The notes under the pieces: generated by a model
What the model was told of the DNA's origin: nothing
Database searches by the model: none
Seen by the model: only the letters and a program-made list of their open reading frames with translations
In this document: piece after piece, positions 45,309-61,272 of the stretch
Layout of the letters: every line of letters begins with the position of its first letter
Position numbering within the stretch: the first letter of the stretch is position 1
Position numbers and translations under genes: made by a program
From: Candidatus Acidulidesulfobacter diazotrophicus
GTDB lineage: Bacteria > SZUA-79 > Acidulodesulfobacterales > Acidulodesulfobacteraceae
Length of the DNA stretch: 64,000 nucleotides
Assembly: GCA_004195025.1 (NCBI GenBank)
Contig: SGBB01000001.1
Location: forward strand, 248,001 to 312,000
Direction of reading: 5' to 3'

Positions 45309-46997
45309 ATGATCACAAAATTACACAGCGCTACATTTCTTGGAATTAACGCAATTATTGTTGATGTTGAAGTATTTATTGCTAACGGAATACCCGGCAT
45401 TATGATTGTAGGCTTGCCCGATGCTTCTACCAAAGAATCAAAAGACAGGGTTAAAGCAGCAATAAAAAATTCAAGCTTTGAGTATCCTGCGAGAAAAATC
45501 ACTATAAATCTTGCTCCTGCCGATATTAAAAAATCAGGACCTATTTTTGACCTTTCCCTAGCAATAGGAATATTAATTTCTGCAAAATTATTAATTCCTA
45601 AAATAAATCTTGACGATTACATAATAGCTGGGGAGCTTTCATTAAACGGCAATATTAATAAAATTGACGGAGTAATCGCCTTAAGCTTGTTAGCAAAAAG
45701 ATTAAATAAAAAAATTATTATTCCGTATGAAAATTTAAACGAGGCAAAATATTTAGGGATTGAATATTATTGTTTTAATACTTTAACCGAAGTTTGCAAT
45801 TTTATATCGGTAATAAATAAAAAACAGAATTTGACTATTAATAGCAATAACGATAATAATAGCGGCAATATTTTATTAAGCAATGAAGAACAAGATTCTG
45901 AAACAATAAGCAGACAGGATTTATTTTATATTGAAAATAATAGTAATAGCAGTAATAGTAATAGTAATGAATTAATTGATAATTATAAGATAATTAATAA
46001 TAGCAGCAATGAAATATTTAATACGAATAATTATTACCCGGATTTTTCTGATATAAAAGGACATATAACAGTTAAAAGAGCAATGGAAATAGCCGTTGCA
46101 GGGCATCATAATATTCTTATGATAGGGTCTCCCGGCAGCGGCAAAACAATGATTGCCCAAAGCGCAGCAGGGATATTGCCTCTGCTGTCTCTTGAAGAAG
46201 CCATAGAAATAACAAATATTTACAGTTTTTCCCATAAAAAAATTAATGTTAAAAATGGTTTGATAACTTCAAGACCGTTTATGCAGGTACATTATTCCGC
46301 AACAATACCTGCATTATTGGGCGGCGGAGCTAATCCCGTTCCGGGAGACGTAAGCCTTGCCCATAATGGCGTGTTATTTATAGACGAATTTTCAGAAATG
46401 AATAAAAAGACTTTAGACAGTTTAAGGCAGCCTATGGAAGATAAAATTATCAATATATCAAGAAATAGATTTTTAGTTTCTTTTCCGTGTGATTTTATGC
46501 TTATTGCTGCAATGAATCCTTGTTCATGCGGATATTTAGGAGACCAGAGCCATGAATGCAGATGTTCGGGTGCCGATATTTACAAATTTTACAATAAATT
46601 GTCGGGACCTATACTTGACAGATTTGATATATTTGTGGAAGTCTATTCGGAAAGTTTAAATATTATTTCAAATAATATTCCTGAAGAAAGTTCATATGAA
46701 GTTCAAAGAAGAATAAATAAGGCAACCGATATACAAAATGAAAGATTTAAAAATATGGGTAAAAAATTTAACGTTTCAATAAAAAGTTCCGAAATAAAAA
46801 AATTTATAAATATATCCGAAGAAACTTTTAATTTTTATAAGTCAGCGGCTGAAAGTTTAAAATTATCTTCGCGCGGTTATTTTAGAATATTAAAAGTTGC
46901 AAGGACAATTTCGGATATTGACGGCAAAGACGAAGTTGATGAAGCATCAATACTTGAAGCATTAAATTATAGAAATACAAAATTTTTAGGCGTATAA
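45309..46997 (+). CDS. YifB/ComM-family AAA+ ATPase (Mg-chelatase-like)
   Basis: A 562-residue ATPase of the ComM/YifB family. ComM is a hexameric helicase that aids integration of transforming DNA. The N-terminal Lon-like domain (GIPGIMIVGLPDA) is followed by the P-loop GSPGSGKTMIAQ near residue 275 and Walker B VLFIDEFSEM. The zinc-containing NPCSCGYLGD comes next, then GPILDRFD and the final SRGYFRILKVARTI. An Asn/Ser-rich insert of about 60 residues (near 175-240), encoded by AATAGT-type microsatellite DNA, lies between the Lon-like domain and the ATPase. A role in natural transformation is inference. Confidence 0.92.
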   Translation: MITKLHSATFLGINAIIVDVEVFIANGIPGIMIVGLPDASTKESKDRVKAAIKNSSFEYPARKITINLAPADIKKSGPIFDLSLAIGILISAKLLIPKINLDDYIIAGELSLNGNINKIDGVIALSLLAKRLNKKIIIPYENLNEAKYLGIEYYCFNTLTEVCNFISVINKKQNLTINSNNDNNSGNILLSNEEQDSETISRQDLFYIENNSNSSNSNSNELIDNYKIINNSSNEIFNTNNYYPDFSDIKGHITVKRAMEIAVAGHHNILMIGSPGSGKTMIAQSAAGILPLLSLEEAIEITNIYSFSHKKINVKNGLITSRPFMQVHYSATIPALLGGGANPVPGDVSLAHNGVLFIDEFSEMNKKTLDSLRQPMEDKIINISRNRFLVSFPCDFMLIAAMNPCSCGYLGDQSHECRCSGADIYKFYNKLSGPILDRFDIFVEVYSESLNIISNNIPEESSYEVQRRINKATDIQNERFKNMGKKFNVSIKSSEIKKFINISEETFNFYKSAAESLKLSSRGYFRILKVARTISDIDGKDEVDEASILEALNYRNTKFLGV

Positions 46998-47367: not shown

Positions 47368-47464
47368 GCCTGTATTATATAAATTATCATATGTAATCAA
47401 TAGTAAAAGATAAAAATATGCAAAAATACAGATGCCTGTATTATATAAATTATCATATGTAATC
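47368..47464. repeat. Pair of perfect 31-bp direct repeats
   Basis: The 31 bases at 47368-47398 recur exactly at 47434-47464, 66 bases apart. The second copy abuts the left end of the MITE at 47464. Confidence 0.85.
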
Positions 47465-47629
47465 CCAAAATTGCCGATAGAAAATTTATTTTCTGGATTC
47501 CTGCTTACGCAGGAATGACTTTGCGGGTATTCAGCTTTTCACCCAACGGGTGTCATTCCCGCGAAAGCGGGAATCCAATGTTCATATAACTTTAAAGCTA
47601 TTTTAAAGATTTCTATCGGCAATTTTGGG
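47464..47629. repeat. 166-bp MITE-like element with perfect 20-bp terminal inverted repeats
   Basis: CCCAAAATTGCCGATAGAAA at the left end is matched by its exact reverse complement at 47610-47629. Two internal hairpins are perfect: ATTCCTGC-TTAC-GCAGGAAT and ATTCCCGC-GAAA-GCGGGAAT. A second family member is at 38270-38434. No coding frame is present. Confidence 0.8.
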
Positions 47630-47630
47630 G

Positions 47631-47818
47631 TCATACTAATAATTGTAAAATAATCTTAGCTATATTATTTTTATCAGTTCAATTTCTTCTTCAACTTCTC
47701 TTCTGTCATACTAATAATTGTAAAATAATCTTAGCTATATTATTTTTATCAGTTCAATTTCTTCTTCAACTTCTCTTCTGTCATACTAATAATTGTAAAA
47801 TAATCTTAGCTATATTAT
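47631..47818. repeat. 75-bp tandem repeat, 2.5 copies
   Basis: Units at 47631-47705 and 47706-47780 are identical, and a third partial unit covers 47781-47818. The array ends next to the stop codon of the PilP/GspC-like gene. There are no spacers, so it is not a CRISPR array. With the repeats just upstream it fills the gene-free gap 47315-47819. Confidence 0.9.
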
Positions 47819-47819
47819 A

Positions 47820-48590
47820 TTAAGATATGTATAATTTTTTTATTTTACCGTCTTTAACAATAGTTATGGAACTATCACCTATGTTTAAAACCTTATAGCC
47901 GTCAAATTCACTGCCTGCTTGGACGACAAAATTAGATTTACCTATGCCGACATCTGCGGCTGCATTTGAAACACCTTTTAATTTCACTGCATTTTTCTTT
48001 CCAGCATAACCAGTAAAATATTTAGATAGCTTATTTATTTTATAGCTGTTTACGTTTGGATACTGAGAAAACAGCCGCTGCGGAGACATTTGACTGCCGG
48101 GTATGATGGTTTGGGTGTTTATCTTACCCTTTTTTGCAAACGTAAGCTCGTGTTTCAATTTTGCTATCTCTATTTGTTTGGTCAGCTTATATATGATAGA
48201 CGAATAATTGCCGGTCATATGCGCCTGCGGCGTTAGATGCGGCTTTAGATGTATTTTTTTATTGAAATTATCGGGTTTGACAAATTTATTCGAATGGACA
48301 GGCGAAAGCCGTTTACCTGTATTGCTAAAAGGCATAGGATGCTGCATTTTAACGGAAGGACTAAAATTTCTCACAGGCGAACTAAATTTAAGCGCAGATT
48401 TTGGCAATATAACTGTGCGATTAATATTCATAGACTTATAAATAATAAAACCTAATATTGTAATAAACACAAGCACAGGAACAATATATAATTTTTTATT
48501 AGATTTCTTTTTTCCAGATTTATTTTCTATAGTTAAATTATCAGTTTCTTTTACGTTTTCTTGAGAAGTTTTTCTTTTAAATAAATTCAT
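47820..48590 (-). CDS. PilP/GspC-like inner-membrane pilus or secretion protein
   Basis: The last gene of the pilus cluster, 256 residues. A cytoplasmic basic N-terminus is followed by one membrane helix (about residues 34-50) and a Pro/Lys-rich periplasmic linker. The small C-terminal beta domain, VVQAGSEFDGYKVLNIGDS, has the pattern of PilP and GspC HR domains that connect the inner-membrane platform to the secretin. The homology is by pattern and gene position. It starts 13 bases after the GspM-like gene. Confidence 0.6.
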   Translation of the reverse strand: MNLFKRKTSQENVKETDNLTIENKSGKKKSNKKLYIVPVLVFITILGFIIYKSMNINRTVILPKSALKFSSPVRNFSPSVKMQHPMPFSNTGKRLSPVHSNKFVKPDNFNKKIHLKPHLTPQAHMTGNYSSIIYKLTKQIEIAKLKHELTFAKKGKINTQTIIPGSQMSPQRLFSQYPNVNSYKINKLSKYFTGYAGKKNAVKLKGVSNAAADVGIGKSNFVVQAGSEFDGYKVLNIGDSSITIVKDGKIKKLYIS

Positions 48591-48603
48591 AATAAATCAC
48601 CTT

Positions 48604-48969
48604 TTAATATGATAATTTTATATTATTATTTGAAACGTTTTGAATTAAAACATAGCTTGGCAGATATTTTATTATACGGTAGTTTGTCGTTAAAATAGCC
48701 TGATTATTCTTTAATATCGTATATTTAATTCCGTTAGTTCTTAAAAAACCTAAAAATTTAAATGCTGTGCCGCCTATGACGGTATTAAACCGTACATTTT
48801 TCTGTTTAAGAGTTTTTACCTGCGCTATTTTTACATTTGAAATTTTAGCCGTAATCATATTTATATTTTTTTTTGTATGCAAGTATGTATTATATGCAGG
48901 CAAAAGTTTAAATATTAATATATAAATAATAGAAATAATTACTAATGCGTTTATTGTTTTATAAATCAT
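48604..48969 (-). CDS. Small bitopic GspM/PilO-like protein
   Basis: A 121-residue protein with one N-terminal membrane helix (about 7-25), a short coiled segment and a small periplasmic domain. Its start overlaps the stop of the preceding gene by 4 bases (ATGA), typical of tightly coupled operon partners. Position between a GspL-like and a PilP-like gene, and the topology, suggest a minimal GspM/PilO counterpart. Sequence alone would not prove this. Confidence 0.5.
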   Translation of the reverse strand: MIYKTINALVIISIIYILIFKLLPAYNTYLHTKKNINMITAKISNVKIAQVKTLKQKNVRFNTVIGGTAFKFLGFLRTNGIKYTILKNNQAILTTNYRIIKYLPSYVLIQNVSNNNIKLSY

Positions 48970-50003
48970 AGCCGCTCCTTAATAAGCCACTTAGATTGTC
49001 CAGTAAATATTAATTTATTTTTTTGTATCGTATAATGAAAAGAGATAGGAACATTGTAATGTTTTTCAAAATTTGTGCTAAAACTATATAAAATACTTTT
49101 AAAATTTAAAGGACTGTTTTCAATCTGAAACTTAAAATTGACGCTATAACCGTTATAAAGTTTAGAAATTTTTAAATTTAAAATATGACAATCTAACGGT
49201 TTTATAATGTATAAATCCTTAATTTTTTTATATAAATTTATGTCTTTTAATAATTTTAAATACAATATTTTATTATTTTCTAAAGAAAGTTTTTTTAAAT
49301 TTATTAGCGCTTGCTGTTTTTTAATATATAAATTATTTAAATTGTTATTTATATAATTTATATAGATAAATAAAATAACTAAGCTTATAAAAAACAAAGC
49401 CGATATTTTTGTTATAAAAATATCAAATTTAAATCTTTCTTTATTAAATGTTTTTTTTGAAGCAATAAAATCCTGACAGGAAAAAATATCAAATAAATCT
49501 ATTCTGTTAAATGTTTTAAAGGAATCTTTAAATTTTTCCGTATTTGAATATAGATTTGTTTTTCCTGCGGCTATTATTTGATTGATAAACGGCAAGCTTA
49601 AATTCATATCTATATCTAATATGTTTTTTCCGTCAAATATTCTTATTTTTTGACCGTAATCTTCAATTAAAACTGATTCTTTATTTATATCAAGATTATT
49701 ATTTACAACATAAGAATATAGCGTTATATTTTTTTGGCTATACGGAGAAATATCGGGAACTTCATATATGTAATAACCGCCGTCCTTATTAAAACACAAA
49801 ACCTGTTTACCTAAAGATTTTATATATTTTTTTAATAAAGATTTATTATAAAAATCTAATATTTTCGGTTCTATCTCTTTTGAGATTAAAAACAAATCTC
49901 CGTCCTGTTCTGGCAATCCTTTTATGAATGCCGCACCCCTCAATTCTTCGTCTAATACGGTAGATTCGTTTCTGTCTATATCGTATATTATTTTATATCT
50001 CAT
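48966..50003 (-). CDS. GspL/PilM-N-like bitopic platform protein
   Basis: A 345-residue protein with a cytoplasmic N-terminal domain (about 1-195), one membrane helix (about 198-220), a coiled linker and a ferredoxin-like periplasmic domain. This is the GspL layout; R64 PilO (pilin accessory protein) is similar. The first strands (YKIIYDIDRNES and DLFLISKE) fit a degenerate actin-like fold, as in GspL. The start codon follows the stop of the platform gene directly, with no gap. Confidence 0.6.
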   Translation of the reverse strand: MRYKIIYDIDRNESTVLDEELRGAAFIKGLPEQDGDLFLISKEIEPKILDFYNKSLLKKYIKSLGKQVLCFNKDGGYYIYEVPDISPYSQKNITLYSYVVNNNLDINKESVLIEDYGQKIRIFDGKNILDIDMNLSLPFINQIIAAGKTNLYSNTEKFKDSFKTFNRIDLFDIFSCQDFIASKKTFNKERFKFDIFITKISALFFISLVILFIYINYINNNLNNLYIKKQQALINLKKLSLENNKILYLKLLKDINLYKKIKDLYIIKPLDCHILNLKISKLYNGYSVNFKFQIENSPLNFKSILYSFSTNFEKHYNVPISFHYTIQKNKLIFTGQSKWLIKERL

Positions 50004-51269
50004 TTATCTTACTCCGTTTACTAAAGAGCCAATTAACGGCAGGTATAAATTTAAAAAGAAAAATATTATAAATCCGGCGGTTAAAAATAGCGTCATATAA
50101 GTTATAAAACTTGCAAAAATATTAATTTTATCATCGGATAACTCTTTATATCTATTTTTAAGGCTGTCAAATGTTTCGTCAATTTTGCCGGTCTTCTCGC
50201 CGGCGGATATATAGGTAGAAACAAGCGGATTTATATCCAATCTTTTTAGACCGTCTGATAAAGATTTACCTGTTTCTAAATCTTTTATTAATAATCCTAT
50301 ATTCTTTTTCCAGTATAAATTTCTTGTATGTTCTTGAACAATCTTAAACGATTCTATTACGGTAATCCCCCCTTTTGTTAAAACATAAAGCTGATAAAAT
50401 AAAATAGAAAGATAGCTTGAATTTATAACTTCAGATACAACGGGAAGTTTTGAAATAATTTCATAAGTTTTAGATTTTAAGCCTTTGTAATCTATAAAAA
50501 ATAAAGTAAAAAATAAAAGCGCAGCAACAGCGACTATTAATGATATTACTGGCACATAAGGTTTTATATTAGTCATTAAAGTTAAAACAAGAGGCGGTTT
50601 AATGCCTTTAACATTTTTAATAAAACTCATAAATTTAGGAGCGGCATAATATATAAATATAACAACGGCTGTTATCATTAATAAAAATAACATAACAGGA
50701 TATACTATAACCTTGCCTAACTTTTTCTTATACGAATATACGCTTTTATAATAATTAGAAATCTCTTTAAATCCTTTTTCTATATCGCCCTCTTTTTCCG
50801 CAGCGCTTAAAATTGCGACAACCTCTTCGGGAAAACCGAGCGCAGGATATTTAAAAATAGAAGTCAAGCTTTTACCGGATGCTGTTTCCGACAATAATTT
50901 AGAAATCAAAATGCTTATCGATTTATATTTATAATTTTTAAAAATTCTATTGATATATTTATAAAAATCTTCGTTATTCATTCTTTTTGAATCGTATGAA
51001 TAAACGGCAAGCATATTGGACAGAGAAGACAATAAACCGCTTGTCCCCAAGTAAAACGACAGCTCTTCAAAAAAGGAACTTAAATCGTTATTCTTGATTC
51101 TTTTTGTAAGAGGAATAGACAAAATGATAGATTTTAGGTCAGGGAATATATATTTTACTATAAACCCGTTGTTTAACAGTTTAGTTCTTGCCTGAGTCCA
51201 TGAAGAACTCTCTATATATAAATAATTCGTCTTTCCTTCTTTGTTTAAAACTATCCCTATGTATTTCAT
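50004..51269 (-). CDS. Type II/IV pilus inner-membrane platform protein (GspF/PilC/PilR type)
   Basis: Polytopic membrane core that works with the assembly ATPase. Two T2SSF domains are visible, each ending in a membrane helix region. The duplicated pattern is seen around FPEEVVAILSAAEKEGDIEKG and LVSTYISAGEKTGKIDETF, with three transmembrane helices at about 170-195, 215-240 and 390-420. A GTG 27 bases upstream (51296) is in frame, but the ATG at 51269 has GGAG in front and is preferred. It lies 80 bases after the ATPase gene. Confidence 0.88.
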   Translation of the reverse strand: MKYIGIVLNKEGKTNYLYIESSSWTQARTKLLNNGFIVKYIFPDLKSIILSIPLTKRIKNNDLSSFFEELSFYLGTSGLLSSLSNMLAVYSYDSKRMNNEDFYKYINRIFKNYKYKSISILISKLLSETASGKSLTSIFKYPALGFPEEVVAILSAAEKEGDIEKGFKEISNYYKSVYSYKKKLGKVIVYPVMLFLLMITAVVIFIYYAAPKFMSFIKNVKGIKPPLVLTLMTNIKPYVPVISLIVAVAALLFFTLFFIDYKGLKSKTYEIISKLPVVSEVINSSYLSILFYQLYVLTKGGITVIESFKIVQEHTRNLYWKKNIGLLIKDLETGKSLSDGLKRLDINPLVSTYISAGEKTGKIDETFDSLKNRYKELSDDKINIFASFITYMTLFLTAGFIIFFFLNLYLPLIGSLVNGVR

Positions 51270-51349
51270 AATGAGCTCCGTTACACTCAGTTTCACAGTA
51301 TTTTTTATTATCGCTAAATTTTTTTTCCATATTATTAATATCCTAATTG

Positions 51350-52951
51350 TTAATATCCTATTTTATAATATTGGTTAATATCTATTAAGCCGGTAATTAA
51401 CAAATCATAAGCCCGCCGTTTCAATGTCTTATAATTTATAGATTTTTCTATATTAAAAATAGAGATTTCGTTTAACATAGAAAGACGGACTTCGTCGGTA
51501 ACATCAATAGCCTCCAGTACCGCTTTTCTCTGAACATATCCTGCTCCGCCGCATGTTTTACATTGTCTATGTCCTTTATCGTAAACGGTAAAATCTGAAT
51601 TTATAGCTTCGCTTTTTCTAACAGCTTCTATTATTAGATTATCTTTTAAATATCTTTCGGGATAATCTCTAATATTTTTGGATTCTTTGCAATCGGGACA
51701 TAATTCGTTATAAAGCCTCTGGCCCATAAGAATCCTGACCGAATCCAATAAAATATTTTTATCTATTCCTAAATTTTCAAGCCGTCTTATAATTCCTAAA
51801 GATGAACTTGCATGAACGGTTGCAAAAACAAGGTGACCCGTTTCGGCGGCTACAATAGCTTGTCTCGCCACTTCCTTATCTCTTATTTCGCCGATTACGA
51901 TAACATTCGGAGCGCTTCTCAATATGCTTTTAATTGATTTTTCATAATTCATTACTTCATTAATTTCGCCTTGCGTTACGTTAGAATTTGATAAATGTAT
52001 TTCTATCGGATCTTCAATCGTATAAATATATCTGTCCATTTGTTCCGCTATCATTTTAATAATAGCAAACACCGTAGTGGATTTACCCGCCGATGTCGGT
52101 CCTGAAATTAAAATAAGCCCTGAATTATACAGCAGTATTTTGCTCAGCAGTTCCGCGGTTTCATCGTTAAAACCTAAATCCGTTAAATTTAAGAGTCTTT
52201 TATTTCCGCCTAAAAGTCTTAAGGTTATTTTATGCTGATTTTCCGGCACATCTTTTATTCGCTCAGGATAAAATTCTGCTCTAATTTGAATTTGTCCTAT
52301 CGTGAACATTAAACTTACCGTGTCTTTCGGATTAACATTAGCGGTTATTCCACCCTTATTTTTTATAATATTTTTGAGCTGATTAAAAAATACTACGCTA
52401 ATCGGATTTAATTTTTGTAAATTACCGTTTCTTACCATATGGCAAAATACCGTTTCATTGTTTATAGGATTAAGATGTATGTCTGAAGCGTTTTTAGAGA
52501 CAGCCATATCTATTATATTTTTTAGATATTTTTCAGGATCGGTCTGCTCTTCCATTGAATATCCTAAATTTTTCAAAATAAATTCAGCCGTTGTAAGATA
52601 TATTTTTGAAATATTCGTTAATAAAGATAAATCTTTATAAATATTACTATTAAAGATATTGACTATTAGCAAAACTTGCGCATTTTTTTTAAGGACAAGA
52701 CAGTTATTCGAAGCGCAGTATTCTTTTGTTAAAAAATCAAATGAAACCGTAAAACCGTCGGGGACTGCATTTATATAATCTATTCCAAGCTGAGAAGACA
52801 CGGCTTTTATAACAGTTTCTTCACTGACATATCTTAAATCCGTTATTATTTGTCCTAACAGTTTTTGAGATTTTGACTGCATTAAAATAGCTTCGTTAAG
52901 CTGTTCTTCTTTTAAATAACCGTTATTTATTAATATTTCGCCGAGTCTCAT
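51350..52951 (-). CDS. Pilus assembly / type II secretion ATPase (PilB/GspE type)
   Basis: Hexameric ATPase that drives pilin polymerisation. The N-terminal GspE_N domain (LGEILINNGYLKEEQLNEAI) is followed by the catalytic core. Walker A is GPTSAGKST near residue 286, the Asp box is YTIEDPIEI, and Walker B is NVIVIGEIRD. The zinc-binding pair LCPDCKES and CKTCGGAGY is typical of GspE/PilB. The frame also opens at GTG 52957, overlapping the pilin stop; ATG 52951 is the better start. No retraction ATPase gene is adjacent. Confidence 0.93.
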   Translation of the reverse strand: MRLGEILINNGYLKEEQLNEAILMQSKSQKLLGQIITDLRYVSEETVIKAVSSQLGIDYINAVPDGFTVSFDFLTKEYCASNNCLVLKKNAQVLLIVNIFNSNIYKDLSLLTNISKIYLTTAEFILKNLGYSMEEQTDPEKYLKNIIDMAVSKNASDIHLNPINNETVFCHMVRNGNLQKLNPISVVFFNQLKNIIKNKGGITANVNPKDTVSLMFTIGQIQIRAEFYPERIKDVPENQHKITLRLLGGNKRLLNLTDLGFNDETAELLSKILLYNSGLILISGPTSAGKSTTVFAIIKMIAEQMDRYIYTIEDPIEIHLSNSNVTQGEINEVMNYEKSIKSILRSAPNVIVIGEIRDKEVARQAIVAAETGHLVFATVHASSSLGIIRRLENLGIDKNILLDSVRILMGQRLYNELCPDCKESKNIRDYPERYLKDNLIIEAVRKSEAINSDFTVYDKGHRQCKTCGGAGYVQRKAVLEAIDVTDEVRLSMLNEISIFNIEKSINYKTLKRRAYDLLITGLIDINQYYKIGY

Positions 52952-52953
52952 AA

Positions 52954-53535
52954 TCACGCCCTAAAATATAAAGTTAAAGTTCCCGCTGCATTTGACGTCT
53001 CCGCCTGCGTATCGTTTGGAGTTAAAGCGGCTCCGTTAAATATCGCTCCGCTTCCCTGCCCCGAATCCGTGTTATCGAGGGAGTTAAAAAAATCGGAGGC
53101 TATTTTATATGCATCGTTTTCAGGTACTAAACCAAACTCTATTTCATAAACATTAGAAAAGTTTGTATCCTGCACTACGCTTATTGCCCCGTTCCACGGG
53201 TCGCAGTGATAAATTGTAGTTGAACCGGCAGGGCAGGCTGTTCCCGGCGCAAGCGCCGCCGTTGCCGTCCATGATTTACCTAAAACCCCCTGTGTAACCA
53301 TGTCAGACACGGTCACGCCTTGAATACTGCCTTGATTTTGACTCATATAATTTAATACCGAAGCTTTCATAGCGTTTACTTGACCTGCGGCAGACGTTAC
53401 CTTTGATACGCCCATGTATTTTGAATATACGTATAAACCGCCAGCGGTAAGTATAGATACGATTATCATAGCTACGATAAGCTCCATCATCGTAAAGCCC
53501 GCGTTATTATTTAATATGTTTTTAACCTTTTTCAT
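52954..53535 (-). CDS. Type IV prepilin (third pilin gene of cluster)
   Basis: A 193-residue prepilin. A 13-residue basic leader ends in AG|FTMMELIVAMII, with Glu5 present as required for docking in the filament. The hydrophobic helix continues to about residue 35. The C-terminal domain has two cysteines (in TACPAG and YHCDPW) that may form a disulfide, and ends in Gly/Ser/Asn-rich sequence. With its long leader and position before the ATPase it is a good candidate for the major pilin, but which of the three is major cannot be read from sequence. Confidence 0.85.
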   Translation of the reverse strand: MKKVKNILNNNAGFTMMELIVAMIIVSILTAGGLYVYSKYMGVSKVTSAAGQVNAMKASVLNYMSQNQGSIQGVTVSDMVTQGVLGKSWTATAALAPGTACPAGSTTIYHCDPWNGAISVVQDTNFSNVYEIEFGLVPENDAYKIASDFFNSLDNTDSGQGSGAIFNGAALTPNDTQAETSNAAGTLTLYFRA

Positions 53536-53561
53536 AAAAACCTCCGTTAATTTAAGTTAAT

Positions 53562-54365
53562 TTAATAGGCAGGTGAAGAAGAAAGCAAATAAGGCGACGC
53601 TGAACAGCCATCGGTTATAGTTATAGTGACGGATTGAGTGGGAGATAACTGTACATTTTGACCGCATACGCCGATATATTCATTAAGGTTATAAGCCGTA
53701 TCCGTAATATACCAGACATAGTTTGGGTCGCCATATCCACTTTCTAAAGCGCTAAAAGTAGGCGCTGTCTGAGTTGGCACCGGCGCGGCCGATATTTGAT
53801 TCGGCGCTGAAGTTGAATTTATTGTTGATGTTGCCGGATATGCCGAAAAACTAAAATTTACATTTACAGGCGTAATAATTGTTCCATTGTTATATGCGCT
53901 TGCCCCATTATAAATATCTTTTGTAAACATTCCTTGATATGCAGGCGGAACACCGGATATATTCAATTGAAATGTGCCGTTATGCGTATCATTAAGACAC
54001 ATATTTATAACATTAGTTCCGATAGACTGCTGAACACAATCATTGCCTTGATTTATACGTTGAAGTCCGGACGGCAGATAAGTCTGATTAACCCCATTTA
54101 CCGAAAGTCCTGCCTGTAATCCTGAAATATTTGAAAACAGTGGATTTTTGATACTATTCTGCGCATTATTACTATACGCTGCCAATTGATACTGTATTTC
54201 GGCTTTTATAATACTATTAGCCGTATTAACCGCCGCTTTAGCTTGATTGTTAAGATTAAAGCCTTCAAGAAACGGTATAGATGCGGCGGTTATAATCATT
54301 ATTATTATAAGAGCCGCTAATATACCGATTAAACCAAAACCCTTATTATTTTGTAATGTTTTCAT
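53562..54365 (-). CDS. Prepilin-like protein lacking Glu5 (candidate tip or minor pilin)
   Basis: A 267-residue protein whose leader MKTLQNNKG is followed by mature FGLIGILAALII. The Gly before the cleavage site is kept, but the normally invariant Glu at mature position 5 is Gly. Pseudopilins of the GspK type lack Glu5 because they sit at the filament tip. The large C-terminal domain has two cysteine pairs and many Asn/Thr/Ser residues. It lies between two ordinary prepilin genes. A tip adhesin or initiator is the likeliest role, by analogy only. Confidence 0.75.
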   Translation of the reverse strand: MKTLQNNKGFGLIGILAALIIIMIITAASIPFLEGFNLNNQAKAAVNTANSIIKAEIQYQLAAYSNNAQNSIKNPLFSNISGLQAGLSVNGVNQTYLPSGLQRINQGNDCVQQSIGTNVINMCLNDTHNGTFQLNISGVPPAYQGMFTKDIYNGASAYNNGTIITPVNVNFSFSAYPATSTINSTSAPNQISAAPVPTQTAPTFSALESGYGDPNYVWYITDTAYNLNEYIGVCGQNVQLSPTQSVTITITDGCSASPYLLSSSPAY

Positions 54366-54388
54366 GCTGCAATACCCCCTCTTAAAAT

Positions 54389-54955
54389 TTAAAATCCAAA
54401 AAGTATTGTAGATCCGCTGCTGTCAGATATTAGAGTATTATTATCAGGTATTACGGCTGCGCAAGCGCTGCTTGGCAAAGAATATGCAATATCTTGCCAA
54501 ATGATATAGGAAATCTGATTTTCTAAAGCATTGCAAATTTGTAATGCCTGTCTATCCGTCATATTAAGGGACATAATACCTATGATATAATTTGTGTTTA
54601 TATTTAACCCCCAATCCTTTGGCTCTCCTATCCAATAATCAGCCACTATTCCTTTATTATTTAAGGGGTTCACATTTTCACCGCCGTTTACAGGCAGCAG
54701 CCAGCCGTCCGGCAATAAGTTATCTTGCTGCAGCGCAGCGGCAGTAAGCCCGTTAAAACTCCCGCCGTTATCTGAAGAATATGTAACACAAGCCTTTGAT
54801 AATTTCTCAATATTAGATACGGTGCTTGAGACCTGCGCCGAACTGATAAATCCGCCGTAAATATAAATACTGCCCGCGGTTATAATTGATATAATTATCA
54901 TTGCAATTATAAGTTCTATAAGAGTAAAACCTTTATTATTTTGCAATATTTTCAT
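54389..54955 (-). CDS. Type IV prepilin (first pilin gene of cluster)
   Basis: A prepilin of about 188 residues, with leader MKILQNNKG cleaved before FTLIELIIAMII. Glu5 is present. The frame opens 12 bases earlier (MSIIM); the shorter start matches the leader of the next pilin gene. The C-terminal domain has cysteines in KACVTY, LQICNAL and SSACAAV. The leader and helix are very similar to those of the Glu5-less neighbour, which suggests gene duplication. Confidence 0.85.
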   Translation of the reverse strand: MKILQNNKGFTLIELIIAMIIISIITAGSIYIYGGFISSAQVSSTVSNIEKLSKACVTYSSDNGGSFNGLTAAALQQDNLLPDGWLLPVNGGENVNPLNNKGIVADYWIGEPKDWGLNINTNYIIGIMSLNMTDRQALQICNALENQISYIIWQDIAYSLPSSACAAVIPDNNTLISDSSGSTILFGF

Positions 54956-55032
54956 AATAATACTCATTTTTATTTAACAATTTATCTAAAAACGATATAG
55001 TAATAAACTAATTATAAAATACGGTATAGTTT

Positions 55033-56571
55033 TTATTTAACAATTTTTGGTTTAAGTAAAATATAAATTTCCGTTTTTGTTTTTGTATTATTTATTCCGC
55101 TAAAGATATAGCCCAGCACCGGAATATCGTCTAAAATCGGAACGCCGTATTTATTGTTGTTTGCGGAATCGGTCGTAAGTCCGCCCAATAACACTGATGT
55201 ATTGGATTTTACGGCAAATGTATCAATCATTGTTTTTGTATCCACATTGGGAACGTTAAAGCTATTTCCGTTAGAACTGAAAGAAGAATACCCGTTTACA
55301 TTGTTATCCACGACGGCTATCGTCGCATATACTTTATTTCCTTTCACGAGCGGCGTAAAAGAAATAGACAACCCCGTCTGAACCTGAGATATTTGAGGAT
55401 AGGACAAAGTTGAGCTTGAAAGACCTAATGATTCTACCTGCACGCCGGATTCGTAAGGTATTACGCTGCCCGAAGATATGACTCTTGTTTGACCGTTTAA
55501 AACCGAAAGAACCGCTGAATTAACGAGTCGGACATTGCCGTAAGTTTGCAGCGCATTAATAACCGCCTGATTAGAATTATTACCGGTAAAAGATAGATAG
55601 TCGCCTGAGTTATTTGCTCCCGCCTGCGTACCTGAATTTAAAGAAAAATTGATATTAGAAATACCTAAAGCATTGCCTTTCATTACATTTTGAAACAATT
55701 CTTGCATATTAATGCCGAATTGATATTGATTTGATAAAGAAATCTCTAAAATTTTTACCGTCAGGATAATCTTTTTGGTTGACAATTTTTTAAGCTCTTT
55801 AACCAATAAATCAACTTGTTTTATTCTTCTTTTTTTGGCGTGAATAGTTAAAAGACCGTAATTTGGAACTATATTGTAATACGACTTCTTTGAACCCTTA
55901 AAGATTGTTTTTAGGTTAGTTAGAAGAACCTTATAAAAGGAATTAGAAGGGGTAGTCATGGTATCAGACATCATTCCCGCCGGATTCGTAGAAGTTTGGC
56001 TGCCCATCATAGAACCTGACGGAGACATTGCCGCTGCAGCAGAACCCATTGCCGGAGCAGCAGCCTGCGAATTATTAGATACATTTGAAGAAGAAACGGA
56101 GCCTACTGAAAAATTAACTTTATTTGTAAGCGCTGTAATAGAGAATCTGTAAGTTTTATCTATATAAGCATGAACGGTTATTTTATTTAAATATTTATTA
56201 TAATGATAAACATAATTAGATAAAACCATTGAAAGAATTTTATATAAAGGTTTATTATTAAAAATAACGGTCATTTTTCTATTTATATTTATATTTTTGG
56301 AATAACTGAAATTGATTTGGCTATCCAAAGAAAGCATGTAAAAGATAGAACCTAAAGAAAGCCTGCCTTTTAGGGATAATTTTTGTTTTAAAGCTAAAGG
56401 TATTTTCTTTTTAGCAGTTATTTTAGGTTTAGCATAGCTGATTTTAATTTTAGGCAAGTTAAAAGCAAAAGTATTAACCGTTAATCCTAAATCTATTAAA
56501 GTTACTGCTATTAAAGTTACTGCTATTAAAGTTACTGCTATTAAAATTACCGTTTGAATTTTAATCATCAT
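55033..56571 (-). CDS. Outer-membrane secretin (PilQ/PilN/GspD family)
   Basis: A 512-residue secretin that forms the outer-membrane channel. The N-terminal signal peptide carries a triple AVTLI repeat. An STN-like domain lies at about residues 70-135. A low-complexity Ala/Ser/Met linker follows (about 160-210), then an N1-type KH region (LTNLKTIFKG, RIKQVDLLVKELKKL). The C-terminal secretin domain is clear, with VPYESGVQ-like and NTSVLLGGLTTDS motifs and the ending GVPILDDIPVLGYIF ... EIYILLKPKIV. No lipobox is visible, so a pilotin may help insertion; the lipoprotein at the head of the cluster is a candidate. Confidence 0.92.
   Translation of the reverse strand: MMIKIQTVILIAVTLIAVTLIAVTLIDLGLTVNTFAFNLPKIKISYAKPKITAKKKIPLALKQKLSLKGRLSLGSIFYMLSLDSQINFSYSKNININRKMTVIFNNKPLYKILSMVLSNYVYHYNKYLNKITVHAYIDKTYRFSITALTNKVNFSVGSVSSSNVSNNSQAAAPAMGSAAAAMSPSGSMMGSQTSTNPAGMMSDTMTTPSNSFYKVLLTNLKTIFKGSKKSYYNIVPNYGLLTIHAKKRRIKQVDLLVKELKKLSTKKIILTVKILEISLSNQYQFGINMQELFQNVMKGNALGISNINFSLNSGTQAGANNSGDYLSFTGNNSNQAVINALQTYGNVRLVNSAVLSVLNGQTRVISSGSVIPYESGVQVESLGLSSSTLSYPQISQVQTGLSISFTPLVKGNKVYATIAVVDNNVNGYSSFSSNGNSFNVPNVDTKTMIDTFAVKSNTSVLLGGLTTDSANNNKYGVPILDDIPVLGYIFSGINNTKTKTEIYILLKPKIVK
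56495..56550 (-). repeat. 15-bp tandem repeat inside the secretin signal peptide
   Basis: ATTAAAGTTACTGCT (plus strand) is repeated three times plus a partial fourth copy. In the coding strand it yields three AVTLI units in the hydrophobic core of the signal peptide. The unit length keeps the frame. Confidence 0.85.
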
Positions 56572-56652
56572 AAATTGTCAACGCCGATTTAAATTGTTAA
56601 TATAGATTTGAGATTAAATTAAATGAAAATAAAATAAAATTGTACTTTTTTT

Positions 56653-57081
56653 TTATTTTGAGAAATATTTATAATACACTGCGATATTTTTAATATAATT
56701 GTAGGTTGAATAAGGCACTCCGCCGTTAGGTCCTGCGTTATAACATGCTAACGCCAGAGCAATATTATTCCCTTTTAAATTTAAACAATATCTTATATAA
56801 TATACGCCGCCTATTATATTTTGAACCGGATTGTAAGGATTTATGCCGATACTCCTTGCTGTTCGCGGCATCAATTGCATAAGACCGATTGCCCCTTTAT
56901 CGGAAAGTGCATTTATATTAAAGTCAGATTCTTCTTTTATGACTGATAGCACTAATGCGCAGGGAACGTTAAAATATTTTGAAGCGATAAATACTGTTTT
57001 CGCTATTGTTTTATAAGAATAGCCGTAAGCATTAGAAATCTCGACGCTAATTATTAAAATAATCATACAAAATTTAGCCAT
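56653..57081 (-). CDS. Lytic transglycosylase (SLT domain), pilus-associated
   Basis: A 142-residue exported lytic transglycosylase that opens peptidoglycan for pilus or secretion assembly, as R64 PilT and VirB1 do. A signal peptide (about 1-20) precedes the SLT core. The catalytic Glu51 is in IKEESDFN, followed by GAIGLMQLMPRTA and ACYNAGPNGG. The start overlaps the upstream lipoprotein gene by 19 bases, so the two are coupled. Confidence 0.9.
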   Translation of the reverse strand: MAKFCMIILIISVEISNAYGYSYKTIAKTVFIASKYFNVPCALVLSVIKEESDFNINALSDKGAIGLMQLMPRTARSIGINPYNPVQNIIGGVYYIRYCLNLKGNNIALALACYNAGPNGGVPYSTYNYIKNIAVYYKYFSK

Positions 57082-57713
57082 AAAGTTATTCCTTTTTTAT
57101 ACCTGTTTGCGACTGTTAAGTTTTTTATAGTTTCCAATTTTTTTATTCTGAATGAATTACCTGCATTAGAATATTTAAAATTCTCGTTTATAACTGTTGT
57201 ATTGCCGTTATTTGTTAAACTTATATAAACAATTTCATAACCTTTTACGTATTTAAATCCTTTAATTATAACGTTAACTTGTTTAATGTTGATTGTTTTA
57301 TGTATTAATATCTTATTTTTTGTATTTATCTTTAAATAAATAGCGCGATCTTTATTCATTAAAATATAAGGTTTTAAACTAATTGTTTTCAATGCAGATA
57401 TTTTTATTTTTGGTCTAATATTTGTATTTTTCTTGGTATTTTTTAATTTAGCCGTTATTGTTTTATGTATTTTAATAATAGCAGCCATATTTTTGGGTAT
57501 ATAAACCCCTGCCCTTGTCTGTTTTAAAGACTTAATTTGCTGTTTTGCAGCGGCAGTCTTTAATACTGGAATATCAAGAACTGTAAGCATTATTCCATTT
57601 AATTTATCTGCCTGAGTTTTAGTTAAATGTTTATTAACTGCAGAAGCGTTATAAGCGCATCCCGATGTTATTAACGCAATAAATAAAATACTCAGAAATA
57701 GTTTTAATTTCAT
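57063..57713 (-). CDS. Putative lipoprotein at the head of the pilus cluster
   Basis: A 216-residue basic protein with a lipoprotein-type signal peptide ending LITSGC, giving a lipidated Cys19. The mature protein is Lys/Ile/Asn-rich, with a C-terminal beta-rich part and no recognised domain. Its position as first gene and its lipidation suggest a pilotin-like or outer-membrane accessory role for the secretin (inference only). An AGGA site precedes the ATG. Confidence 0.6.
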   Translation of the reverse strand: MKLKLFLSILFIALITSGCAYNASAVNKHLTKTQADKLNGIMLTVLDIPVLKTAAAKQQIKSLKQTRAGVYIPKNMAAIIKIHKTITAKLKNTKKNTNIRPKIKISALKTISLKPYILMNKDRAIYLKINTKNKILIHKTINIKQVNVIIKGFKYVKGYEIVYISLTNNGNTTVINENFKYSNAGNSFRIKKLETIKNLTVANRYKKGITLWLNFV

Positions 57714-58219: not shown

Positions 58220-58296
58220 GCGTCCATAGCTCAGATGGATAGAGCAACAGCCTTCTAAGCTGTGGGTCGTGGGTTCGAATCCCGCTGGACGCACCA
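58220..58296 (+). tRNA. tRNA-Arg (TCT)
   Basis: GCGTCCA pairs with TGGACGC. The anticodon arm ACAGC/GCTGT encloses CTTCTAA, giving TCT. The T-arm GGGTTCGAATCCC and the encoded CCA are present. Its 3' part is duplicated downstream, so it is an integration site. Confidence 0.95.
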
Positions 58297-58298: not shown

Positions 58299-58426
58299 TA
58301 AAACCGCATTAAATAAGCCGCTTCTGGTAACATTCTGCTTGGCAGGCATATCCTTAAAAATGGTAAAATAATGTCAAATTTGGTAAAATATTGATACATA
58401 TTTGTCACATATATAAGGGGGATAAA

Positions 58427-58681
58427 ATGCCAGAAATTAAAAAGAGAAAGAATAGTAAATTCTATCAATATGACGTAATGGTTGACGGAGTGCGTTACCG
58501 GGGCAGCTGCCATACGGACGATAAAAGTTTGGTCGGGAAAATAGCCAGCATTAAAACCTTATCGGATGAAGATATAAATAAACTTACAAAGAATTTAATT
58601 ACTTTTGTTAATGCTAATAAAAATCTTACTCCCGCTGATTCAAGCGAGAGTAAGAGAATAAATAAATCGGATAACTCCTAG
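58427..58681 (+). pseudogene. Tyrosine-integrase N-terminal fragment beside tRNA-Arg
   Basis: The frame encodes an arm-type DNA-binding start (PEIKKRKNSKFYQYDVMVDG, then VRYRGSCHTDDKS), as found at the N-terminus of phage integrases, and ends at TAG after about 84 residues. ATG 58427 follows a GGGGG site; the frame also opens at 58391. Reading through the TAG continues 34 more sensible codons to TAA at 58784-58786. The catalytic domain is missing. It sits 129 bases after the att copy, the normal place for an integrase, so this is probably the remnant of the element that integrated here. Confidence 0.6.
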
Positions 58682-58791
58682 GAAACTAACCAGAATATAG
58701 ACCATGAAAAATTTAGCGAAGGCCTTCAGTTTTTTACAATAGGTTTAGCTATGCACGAGTTTGAAAATTATAAGGCAGGGAGATAAAATAT

Positions 58792-59199
58792 TTATTTGAA
58801 CGGATTGACGATTTCTAATCTTTTTTCTATTTCCTGCCCTGAATGCAAATCTTCGGAAAAAAGTATATTACAGTTACTTTCCAATGCGGAAGCTATTACC
58901 ATGCTGTCCCAGTAAGAATAGCGATATTTTACCCTGATCGCCGAAGCGGAAAAAAATATATCCTTAGAAAAATTAATTATCGAATATCTTTTATAGCAGC
59001 TATCGACAAAATCCATAATATTTAACTCATTAAACCCGAGTTTTTTAAGCATGTTATTGCTGACTTCATTTATTACTTGCGTGCTGATGGTGAAATCATC
59101 AGCTAATAAAACATCTTTTGCAATTTCATGTTTTTTTAAATCTATATCCGAAAAGCCGTAGAGGAATATGTTGGAATCAAGAAAGATATTATCTTTCAT
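58792..59199 (-). CDS. PIN-domain ribonuclease toxin (VapC-like)
   Basis: A 135-residue PIN-domain RNase. The acidic metal site is visible: Asp8 in FLDSNIFLY, the Glu of QVINEVSNN, and the Asp residues of YWDSMVIASAL and LFSEDLHSG. Such toxins cleave tRNA or rRNA and are held in check by the adjacent antitoxin. The start overlaps the antitoxin gene by 11 bases. It lies inside the att-bracketed islet. Confidence 0.9.
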   Translation of the reverse strand: MKDNIFLDSNIFLYGFSDIDLKKHEIAKDVLLADDFTISTQVINEVSNNMLKKLGFNELNIMDFVDSCYKRYSIINFSKDIFFSASAIRVKYRYSYWDSMVIASALESNCNILFSEDLHSGQEIEKRLEIVNPFK

Positions 59200-59395
59200 T
59201 GGCTTCTTCTCTCGATAAAAAAGATACGCCGCTATTAAGATGGACGGGGTTGTTTACGATCCTGAAAATAAAATCTTTATCGCTTCTAAAATCGTTATCC
59301 AGTATTATCACTTTCGCTTTTTTTGCGTTAAGATACTTCTTGGGCAAGTTAATTACACCGTTTTTTATTTCCGTTTCAAATTCCGAATTTCGCAT
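59189..59395 (-). CDS. Antitoxin partner of the PIN toxin
   Basis: A 68-residue protein. The N-terminal half, FETEIKNGVINLPKKYLNAK then KAKVIIL, has the short beta pattern of AbrB/SpoVT-like or related antitoxin DNA-binding domains. The C-terminal part (about 40-68) would wrap the toxin. ATG 59395 follows an AGAGGT site and is preferred over GTG 59404. It precedes and overlaps the toxin gene, the usual antitoxin-first order. Confidence 0.75.
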   Translation of the reverse strand: MRNSEFETEIKNGVINLPKKYLNAKKAKVIILDNDFRSDKDFIFRIVNNPVHLNSGVSFLSREEANER

Positions 59396-59608
59396 CTTTA
59401 ACACCTCTTAATATTGTGGTATTATAAATTTTAGTTTTAATAAATTAACTTAATTAATAAATATATCATTTAATTTATTAATATTATACCGCTTTTTTAG
59501 GATGCGTTCAATTATTGTTTCCGGCAGGCTCTTTGCTACTATATTGCTACCATATTTCAATATTTCATTAAAACACTAATAATATTAATATCTTATAAGT
59601 GCGATTTC

Positions 59609-59659
59609 CAGCCTTCTAAGCTGTGGGTCGTGGGTTCGAATCCCGCTGGACGCACCATT
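59609..59659 (+). repeat. Attachment-site copy 2 (3' part of tRNA-Arg)
   Basis: An exact 51-base copy of the tRNA-Arg 3' half, including CCA. It lacks the 5' half, so it is not a tRNA gene. It closes a 1,361-bp unit. The stretch 59405-59608 before it holds no gene I can support. Confidence 0.85.
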
Positions 59660-59788
59660 CAAAACACAAGCCCTTTAATCCTTTCCTGGCTTTTTACCAT
59701 AAAAATTTATCTTGACTAAAAAGCTAAAATCGTATAAATTTATGTATATTTATACAAATTTTACATACAAAAACCCACACAATTTTTT

Positions 59789-60010
59789 ATGAGAATTTAC
59801 AAACGCGGAAATATCTTCTGGTGCTAATTTCAAGTCGATAAAAAGACTTACAGACAGGTATTCATGTAAAACAAAAGCAAAAGATGTCGCCCATGAAGTA
59901 GCGGTCGCCCTGCACGCCGACGTCGTCAGGAAGAAATTCGACATACCCGCTAAATATAAAGCTAAAAAATTATTTAAAGACGTATGAGAAGAGTATATTA
60001 AAATATATGT
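59789..60010 (+). pseudogene. Decayed second tyrosine integrase, N-terminal part
   Basis: From ATG 59789 the sequence reads MRIYKRGNIFW, then hits TAA, continues FQVDKKTYRQVF, and is broken by a further stop and a frameshift. It resumes in another frame as DVAHEVAVALHADVVRKKFD ... KKLFKDV followed by TGA where Trp is expected, then EEYIKIY. This is a recognisable integrase arm and core-binding N-terminus. The ATG is 130 bases from att copy 2, mirroring the first integrase fragment (129 bases). Confidence 0.65.
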
Positions 60011-60235
60011 GTCAACTATGATGAGTTCAAAGTTATTAAAGATTATCAAAATGATCTTAAACTTCTGGAGATAAAAAATAAAGCTGAAAAATTTCTCGAA
60101 GAATGGCTAGACAAGGAATTTAAATCGCAATGTGGTTTTTTTCATTTTAATTTCAACCCCCTAACTATAAAAATTTACAAGCCTAAATTTAAAACGAGAT
60201 TCATAGCCGTATTGGAAGCATTGAAAAAACCTTAG
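60011..60235 (+). pseudogene. Open-frame remnant without a start codon
   Basis: About 74 codons reading NYDEFKVIKDYQNDLKLLEI, then KAEKFLEEWLDKEF and, near the end, RFIAVLEALKKP, closed by TAG. No start codon is available and no family is recognised. It may continue the decayed integrase region in another frame or be the end of an unrelated gene. Confidence 0.35.
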
Positions 60236-60262
60236 ATAAAACGGATGTGGTAAAATAAAATC

Positions 60263-60508
60263 ATGAAACACAGGCACATAAATGTAAATATTAATAAAAG
60301 TCTACCACTTGAAGCGATAGACGACATTGTCTCAAGGGGCGATATGCCGGAATGGTTGGAGTTAAGGGACTACGCTTTAAGCCATCCGGAAGCGTTAAAC
60401 GATATAATAAAAATTTGCAAACATTATATAGCAGATCCCTACGAACAGAAATATTATTTCTGGTATAATTTTGCTCTATATTTAATAAATGCCGGAGGAA
60501 CCCAATGA
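60263..60508 (+). CDS. Small protein coupled to a nucleotidyltransferase, unknown
   Basis: An 81-residue protein (NINKSLPLEAIDDIVSRGDM, then PEWLELRDYALSHPEAL and DPYEQKYYFWYNFALYLI). No domain is recognised; it is helix-rich and acidic/aromatic toward the end. Its stop overlaps the ATG of the nucleotidyltransferase gene (ATGA), so the two are translationally coupled. The size and order fit an antitoxin or partner, but that is inference. Confidence 0.6.
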   Translation: MKHRHINVNINKSLPLEAIDDIVSRGDMPEWLELRDYALSHPEALNDIIKICKHYIADPYEQKYYFWYNFALYLINAGGTQ

Positions 60509-61272
60509 ACGACAAGGAAGAATGGGAGAGCGTTGTTTCGAATATAGCGAGGATTAACGACATCCTGCCCGATGCCGTCATAGTAGGAGGAACAGCATCG
60601 GCTTTATATTCCGAACATAGAACGTCTAACGATACCGATTTTGTAGTTAAGGATTTAAAGGAAAGATTCAACGATATCCTTTCGACGCTTGAAGCGGTTT
60701 CTGGATGGAAGACTTCAAGGATAAAACCGCCGGTTTTAATTCTTGGAAATTTAAACGGTATCGAAACGGGTATAAGGCAGCTTATAAGAACCAAACCGTT
60801 AGAAACCACGGAAATGGATTATAAAGGCCAAAAATTAACAGTGCCTACCTCTGCCGAAATTTTAAGGATTAAAGGTTTTTTAATACTTGCCAGGAATGCG
60901 ACGCGCGATTACATTGATTTCGTCGCGCTGGCCAACCATCTGGGCGACGGTAAAACCAATGAGTCCTTAAAAAGCTTTGACGAGCTTTATCCGCAGGAAA
61001 ATAAAGCATCGGCCTTAAGGCAACTGGTGGTACAATTAACGAAACCATTACCGTATGATTTAAAGGAAACCGATTTAACCAAATATAAAAATCTCGACAA
61101 AAAGTGGCAGGATTGGCGTAACGTGGAAGAGTATTCCAAAAAGGTAGCGATTAATATTTTTACGGGATACAGGAATGAATTGGAGCCTAAACCCGAAACT
61201 CCTAAACCCGACGCTTTCTCGGAATGGCTCAATGAAAAAGAGCAGAATAAAAAGAAAGGGCCGAAGCTGTAA
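60505..61272 (+). CDS. Nucleotidyltransferase-fold protein (AbiEii/MenT-like)
   Basis: A 255-residue protein with a polymerase-beta-type nucleotidyltransferase core. The VIVGGTASALYSEHRTSNDT segment holds the Gly-Gly pair (28-29) and the first acidic residue of the metal site; the TDF that follows supplies the second. The pattern matches AbiEii toxins of type IV systems. The C-terminal half is helical and ends in a charged Pro/Lys tail. A GGAGG site precedes the ATG. The DNA is visibly less AT-rich than the surroundings, suggesting transfer. Acting as a toxin or abortive-infection factor is plausible but unproven. Confidence 0.7.
   Translation: MNDKEEWESVVSNIARINDILPDAVIVGGTASALYSEHRTSNDTDFVVKDLKERFNDILSTLEAVSGWKTSRIKPPVLILGNLNGIETGIRQLIRTKPLETTEMDYKGQKLTVPTSAEILRIKGFLILARNATRDYIDFVALANHLGDGKTNESLKSFDELYPQENKASALRQLVVQLTKPLPYDLKETDLTKYKNLDKKWQDWRNVEEYSKKVAINIFTGYRNELEPKPETPKPDAFSEWLNEKEQNKKKGPKL

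Follow-up and report, generated by a model that had tools for sequence, protein, structure and literature searches.

Type IV filaments have been repurposed again and again, serving motility, secretion, DNA uptake, and conjugation. Of the systems known only as "generic" type IV filaments, recognized by clustered ATPase, platform, and pilin genes, 884 are still unplaced (Denise, Abby and Rocha 2019, PMC6668835). Among the described classes, mannose-sensitive hemagglutinin (MSH) loci all lack a prepilin peptidase and are thought to borrow one (PMC6668835), and in conjugation the type IV pili (T4P) of TP114 and PAPI-1 attach to the recipient cells (PMC9045228, PMC5297154). Here, we analyze an eleven-gene operon in a 64,000-nucleotide stretch of the apparently uncultivated Candidatus Acidulidesulfobacter diazotrophicus (assembly GCA_004195025.1, contig SGBB01000001.1, positions 248,001 to 312,000), hereafter the window. 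The operon fits best among the unassigned, generic type IV filaments, and one of its inner-membrane proteins is GspL-like; the operon probably encodes a secretin-dependent filament of a so-far unassigned lineage, most likely a thin adhesive pilus.

Gene Content of the Operon

The operon is a minus-strand run of eleven open reading frames (ORFs) at 47820-57713, with intergenic gaps of -19 to +81 bp and several overlaps; place, strand, and order are all as an earlier note on this DNA had given them. In the direction of transcription, the genes are as follows:

57063..57713, minus strand: lipoprotein, 216 amino acids, lipobox ...LITSGC, without Pfam or Protein Data Bank (PDB) relatives
56653..57081, minus strand: lytic transglycosylase (LT), 142 amino acids (SLT, 2.2e-20)
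55033..56571, minus strand: secretin, 512 amino acids, with an MshL-like C-terminal half (Secretin, 6.8e-30)
54389..54967, minus strand: prepilin 1, 192 amino acids, processing site KG/FTLIE (N_methyl, 3.1e-9)
53562..54365, minus strand: prepilin 2, 267 amino acids, KG/F processing site without Glu5 (N_methyl, 0.0038; 17.2 bits, cut-off 21.2)
52954..53535, minus strand: prepilin 3, 193 amino acids, processing site AG/FTMME (N_methyl, 4.4e-7)
51350..52957, minus strand: assembly ATPase, 535 amino acids (T2SSE, 7e-67)
50004..51296, minus strand: GspF/PilC-type platform protein, 430 amino acids, ~420 with a downstream start (T2SSF, 2.5e-30)
48966..50003, minus strand: protein of GspL layout, 345 amino acids, with a cytoplasmic part (1-194), a transmembrane segment (195-213), and a ferredoxin-like domain (~256-345)
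48604..48969, minus strand: short bitopic protein, 121 amino acids, GspM/PilO-like by position and layout only
47820..48590, minus strand: bitopic protein, 256 amino acids, with a transmembrane segment (33-51), a long linker, and a conserved C-terminal domain, GspC/PilP-like by layout only

In a Pfam/NCBIfam scan, SLT, Secretin, N_methyl (two prepilins), T2SSE, and T2SSF exceeded their cut-offs, and the lipoprotein and the 345-, 121-, and 256-residue proteins matched no family. With T2SSE, T2SSF, and N_methyl all above cut-off in one operon, the locus falls under the published definition of a generic type IV filament (PMC6668835).

For comparison, we used 30 genomes of the phylum, seven of them from the genus and 23 others. 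Five related metagenome-assembled genomes (MAGs) carry the operon beside comM in nearly the same order and keep every gene except the 267-residue prepilin, at 38-98% identity (77-95% for the secretin); because of this conservation, we consider the eleven ORFs real genes rather than chance ORFs. The operon, with its 345-residue protein, was found in all seven genus genomes and in none of the 23 others. Loci L014-L018 come from the same genomes as some of the G-numbered entries (L014 and G006 share a 48201-bp contig) and are not independent of this seven-of-seven count.

The three prepilins differ in their distribution. The type of prepilin 1 is present in nearly all related operons, making it the candidate major pilin, and prepilin 3 is conserved at 68-98% across the genus. 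Within the genus, prepilin 2 was seen in just two genomes, that of the window and the one closest to it, and is absent from the four more distant members; these have a prepilin of the 192-residue type upstream of the lipoprotein gene, where the contig extends that far.

The assembly ATPase combines an N-terminal MshEN domain with Walker A and B motifs, Asp and His boxes, and a CxxC...CxxC arrangement, and its motor motifs are intact and invariant in six genomes. MshEN is a receptor domain for cyclic di-GMP (c-di-GMP) with two 24-residue motifs (PMC5013675). The window domain scored 53.5 bits with NF053729 (cut-off 38), and its first motif, RLGEILINNGYLKEEQLNEAILMQ, matches except at Tyr14 and Ile24. 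The platform protein probably starts ~10 codons downstream of the ORF start, as its relatives align from residue 10. Its class models, ComGB, GspF, and HofC, all stayed below cut-off, and its assignment is ambiguous.

Comparison with Known Filament Classes

In the ATPase tree, the window family and twelve relatives from the phylum formed a clade (support 100/99) apart from PilB/GspE/HofB (99/99) and from R64, and an approximately unbiased (AU) test rejected joining the window ATPase with those of type IVa pili (T4aP) and type II secretion systems (T2SS; p = 0.0003). The window secretin was likewise placed outside PilQ and GspD. Its best model was MshL (TIGR02519) at 145.3 bits, below the cut-off of 250.2, followed by GspD (92) and PilQ (67), and the secretins of the genome's two other T4P systems, A and B, scored best with PilQ. 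In plasmid searches, secretin matches were no better than 24-31% identical. The earlier note had described a compact, divergent machine of type IVb-like kind. The trees bear out the divergence, and the grouping that the note had set against itself, with ATPase and secretin both nested in a conventional T4aP or T2SS clade, did not occur; membership in the R64-type T4bP did not hold up.

The window proteins gave no match to the R64-type models TIGR02520 (PilN secretin), PF06864 (PAP_PilO, for PilO2), and TIGR03021 (PilP), whereas the R64 controls PilN (483 bits with TIGR02520) and PilP matched theirs. The ATPase also fell outside the R64 PilQ clade, a placement given moderate weight owing to long branches. 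With the R64/IncI and PAPI-1 pili, the operon nevertheless has a common part list of lipoprotein, LT, secretin, GspL-like protein, ATPase, platform, and pilins, and those pili and the relatives of the window operon are alike linked to type IV secretion systems (T4SSs); it differs from them in having neither the PilU peptidase nor the PilV shufflon.

Other classes fitted no better. No PilM, PilN, PilO, or PilP match was found in the operon, and systems A and B of the same genome have PilM, PilN, and PilO matches. With the T2SS, the operon has in common a likely GspL-type periplasmic fold and, by layout, an L-M-C-like trio, but it includes an LT, and no GspG-K pseudopilin model passed its cut-off. 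The MSH (MSHA) pilus resembles it in the MshL-best secretin, the MshEN-type ATPase domain, and the peptidase-free locus and differs in gene order; the operon has no mshM-like gene, and its secretin score was well short of the MshL cut-off. For Tad, TIGR03819 gave 45.1 bits against a cut-off of 373, short of a TadA-type ATPase. The generic filaments (PMC6668835) have in common with the window operon the ATPase, platform, pilins, and secretin, a peptidase outside the locus, and the lack of a fitting specific model, and to these the operon adds the lipoprotein-LT pair, the protein of GspL layout, two bitopic proteins, and a tRNA-linked site.

Inner-Membrane Proteins and Parts Encoded Elsewhere

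Only the C-terminal beta-beta-alpha-beta-beta domain of the 345-residue protein was reliable in its predicted model, with a predicted local distance difference test score (pLDDT) of ~70. Among the top PDB folds for this domain were the periplasmic domains of XcpY, PulL, and EpsL (Z 8-9), but PilO and ferredoxin-like proteins of unrelated kinds ranked there too. The protein gave no sequence match, and PAP_PilO matched two relatives in the set scanned, not the window protein. We consider the protein likely to be GspL-like, with the caveat that the fold matches extend to those unrelated ferredoxin-like proteins. The C-terminal domain of the 256-residue protein is common to the relatives (hhalign probability 96% against the T4SS-linked type). 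Profiles of the 256- and 121-residue proteins showed no significant similarity to GspC, PilP, GspM, or PilO, neither PilP nor T2SSC was matched when 14 and 21 relatives were scanned with Pfam, and PDB sequence searches with profiles of the lipoprotein and the 256- and 345-residue proteins returned nothing useful. Of the names proposed earlier for this trio, GspL-like is thus backed by layout and fold and GspM-like by layout only, and PilP-like finds no backing in sequence.

The earlier description, a cluster that lacks both a peptidase and a retraction ATPase, holds for the locus but not for the genome. Contig C20 encodes a full-length, 363-residue PilD-type prepilin peptidase with a CPDC...CRSC pair and a GGGD motif, and PilT-type ATPases are encoded in a pilB-pilT-pilC run on C4 and, as another PilT-family member, on C15. 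We infer that the C4 run and pilM, pilN, a fused pilO-pilP, and pilQ on C2 make up system A, and that pilM-N-O-P-Q on C6 and an ATPase and platform on C10 make up system B. A peptidase-free locus is not peculiar, since the published MSH loci all lack one and the genome has PilD. The part list is in this respect ordinary; of more interest are the lipoprotein-LT pair, which recurs in T4SS-linked modules, and the variability of the pilus site, both described below. The genome also encodes two short membrane proteins of the A24 family that lack the zinc CxxC motifs (L025 8214-8825 on C35 and L026 9599-10198 on C19).

Relatives Linked to Type IV Secretion Systems

Secretins and ATPases ~30% identical to those of the window occur phylum-wide among the 30 genomes searched, and the lineage of the operon is seen here in this small phylum alone, the named relatives being MAGs from mine water. 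Some of the relatives are parts of T4SS-linked modules (G001, G006 on two contigs, G019, and G020), which run in the order VirB-type genes, VirB8, VirB10 (TrbI), a MoxR ATPase, VirB9 (CagX), a lipoprotein, and an LT; where the contig goes on, the LT is followed by pilus genes with GGDEF genes and, in two of three cases, HD genes. In these modules, VirB2, VirB3, VirB5, and VirB6 are labeled by position or layout, and VirB4, VirB10, and, weakly, VirB8 and CagX by Pfam.

The pair at the head of the window operon ties it to these modules. The lipoprotein family was found in the phylum only in the genus operon, the T4SS-linked pilus modules, and one R64-like operon (G014), plus a weak partial match in G003. 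The window LT is 63-71% identical to the LTs beside VirB9/CagX genes in the T4SS-linked modules and at most 52% identical to any other LT.

The T4SS-linked elements are presumably conjugative. A gene of the type IV coupling protein (T4CP) type lies ~26 kb from the module on the G001 contig and ~35 kb from it on the G020 contig. In one module type, two genera (L082 and L165) have almost identical ATPases, suggesting that this type was transferred recently. GGDEF and HD-domain proteins adjoining an MshEN-type ATPase were seen inside T4SS-linked pilus modules at L082 13932-15230 and L079 13882-15645. The window genome itself has a second VirB-type T4SS locus (L166 12767-19159, on C10), with a VirB4 ~49% identical to that of the modules; nearly every genome of the phylum has a VirB4 of the C10 type, and the C10 T4SS is perhaps a core rather than a mobile system.

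The tRNA-Arg(TCT) Site and the Origin of the Operon

The operon lies next to a tRNA gene:

58220..58296, plus strand: tRNA-Arg(TCT), 5' end 506 bp from the lipoprotein start codon

The operon lies 5' of this gene and is transcribed away from it. The tRNA gene borders the operon in six of the seven genus loci, the contig stretch of the seventh beginning too late to show it. In a second set of pilus loci, group D, tRNA-Arg(TCT) is near the secretin start, on the same side, in 14 of 16 cases (genera g2, g3, and g4); in genus g6 it was not found. In G014, the site carries the R64-like pilus operon with the window's lipoprotein family. The types of pilus operon at the site exclude one another at the level of the genus or the genome.

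A fast-diverged vertical ortholog of the group-D operon, kept at the same tRNA gene with no replacement, would account for the common site and side, the mutually exclusive distribution, and the core parts that the window operon has in common with group D (L084-L088), namely the secretin, ATPase, platform, prepilin 1, and the L-, M-, and C-like genes. We nevertheless consider such descent somewhat unlikely. Gene order differs between the two, and group D has neither the lipoprotein nor the LT, which the window operon has in common with the T4SS-linked modules. The core proteins are 27-35% identical, whereas in the same pair of genera the PilQ proteins (systems A and B) are 61-65% and ComM is 59% identical, and a single clade of window and group-D sequences was rejected for both the ATPase (p = 0.018) and the secretin (p = 0.021). 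The G014 locus shows, moreover, that an R64-like operon can fill the site. Given the low core identity, the rejected clade, and the different pilus operons found at the site in different genera, the window operon most likely reached the tRNA-Arg(TCT) site by replacement, not by simple descent.

We tentatively extend replacement to a broader scenario, which is possible but far from secure: a new clade of filaments may move between VirB-type DNA-transfer elements and the 5' flank of tRNA-Arg(TCT), where genera would swap whole pili, and the window operon may be a domesticated conjugation pilus that has retained the lipoprotein-LT pair from the T4SS to which it once belonged. With ~30 genomes offering both chromosomal and T4SS-linked forms of a single lineage, together with a fixed chromosomal landmark and the common lipoprotein-LT pair, the path between conjugation pilus and chromosomal pilus could be directly traceable.

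We rejected a placement of the pilus cluster inside an island at the tRNA-Arg 3' end, as it is the 3' side that carries an integrase fragment and toxin-type genes, whereas the cluster lies 5' of the tRNA gene. The 3' region (58391-61272) contains a short integrase-like N-terminal fragment, recognized by eye and without a Pfam match, a PIN-domain protein, and an AbiEii-like protein; it resembles a degraded tRNA-borne island, across the tRNA gene from the pilus operon. In a relative, a Cas12a (Cpf1) gene is found 3' of tRNA-Arg(TCT), again opposite the pilus operon (L084 12684-16223).

Proposed Function and Alternatives

We favor a pilus over a pseudopilus because the prepilins are 192-267 residues long, an LT is present, a full GspG-K set is absent, and relatives sit beside VirB8-VirB10-MoxR-VirB9 with GGDEF and HD genes. 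From what is known of the family, prepilins 1-3 would be cleaved in trans by the genome's PilD. By homology, the MshEN-bearing ATPase would power polymerization on the platform protein, which homology and fold suggest is held by the protein of GspL layout and the two bitopic partners. The LT may open the cell wall and the lipoprotein help to seat or gate the secretin, through which, as in the family at large, the filament would exit. The ATPase is possibly tuned by c-di-GMP, and the pilus would either be non-retracting or use a PilT borrowed from the T4aP system. In the related T4SS-coupled modules, the filament would stabilize mating pairs, by analogy with R64, TP114, and PAPI-1.

The inner-membrane proteins invite another reading, a T2SS-like machine that secretes proteins by means of a short pseudopilus. 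A protein of GspL layout with two bitopic partners in L-M-C order closes the operon, the secretin is of MshL/GspD type, and the operon has no retraction ATPase. The ATPase, however, lies outside the GspE clade, no GspG/H/I/J/K set exceeded cut-off and no GspC-type domain was matched, and the presence of an LT and the position of the relatives in DNA-transfer modules also speak for a pilus; we regard a secretion machine as quite unlikely. Two further readings start from neighbors and relatives of the operon, the first of them from its convergent neighbor, conserved in the genus:

45309..46997, plus strand: comM/yifB (Mg-chelatase-like)

With this gene at its side, the operon could encode a DNA-uptake (competence) pilus, and in two loci of other genera (L085 and L087) comM lies within 6-7 kb of the pilus site, but it was not seen near the site in L086 or L088. 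Moreover, comM/yifB is widespread, here convergent and separated from the operon by 0.8 kb with repeats, the operon contains no comEA or comEC, and the T4aP and the second T4P system are other candidates for the role, all of which makes a competence pilus improbable. It is highly improbable that the pilus still forms mating pairs in the service of a T4SS encoded elsewhere in the genome: while homologous modules are fused to VirB-type T4SS operons, and a VirB4-type T4SS (on C10) and T4CP-like genes are present in the genome, no T4SS gene is near the operon, and the C10 T4SS is of another subtype, nearly phylum-wide and also present in genomes without the operon.

Several points weigh against an adhesive pilus of separate lineage that arrived by replacement, as we propose it. 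The tree references comprised one or two systems per class, without MSH, Tad, or diderm Com systems, and several branches were long. The trees are also compatible with vertical descent of the site if the root lies between the window type and everything else, in which case the mobile modules would have arisen from the group-D side. The GspM- and PilP-like labels are without sequence support, and the AlphaFold model of the lipoprotein, at pLDDT 36, did not resolve a fold. The second MshEN motif is degenerate, without Arg and Gly10, and c-di-GMP binding by the ATPase is therefore uncertain; the ATPases of the T4aP and the second system of the same genome likewise carry an MshEN domain.

Other Features of the Window

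Between comM and the operon, we observed a 166-bp element resembling a miniature inverted-repeat transposable element, with perfect 20-bp terminal inverted repeats (47464-47629), followed by ~2.6 copies of a 75-bp tandem repeat (47630-47821) reaching the 3' end of the last operon gene. Farther along the window, 61904-63850 encodes a chemotaxis receptor in which a phosphonate-binding-type periplasmic-binding domain lies C-terminal to the methyl-accepting chemotaxis protein (MCP) signaling domain, an odd topology that is conserved in relatives.

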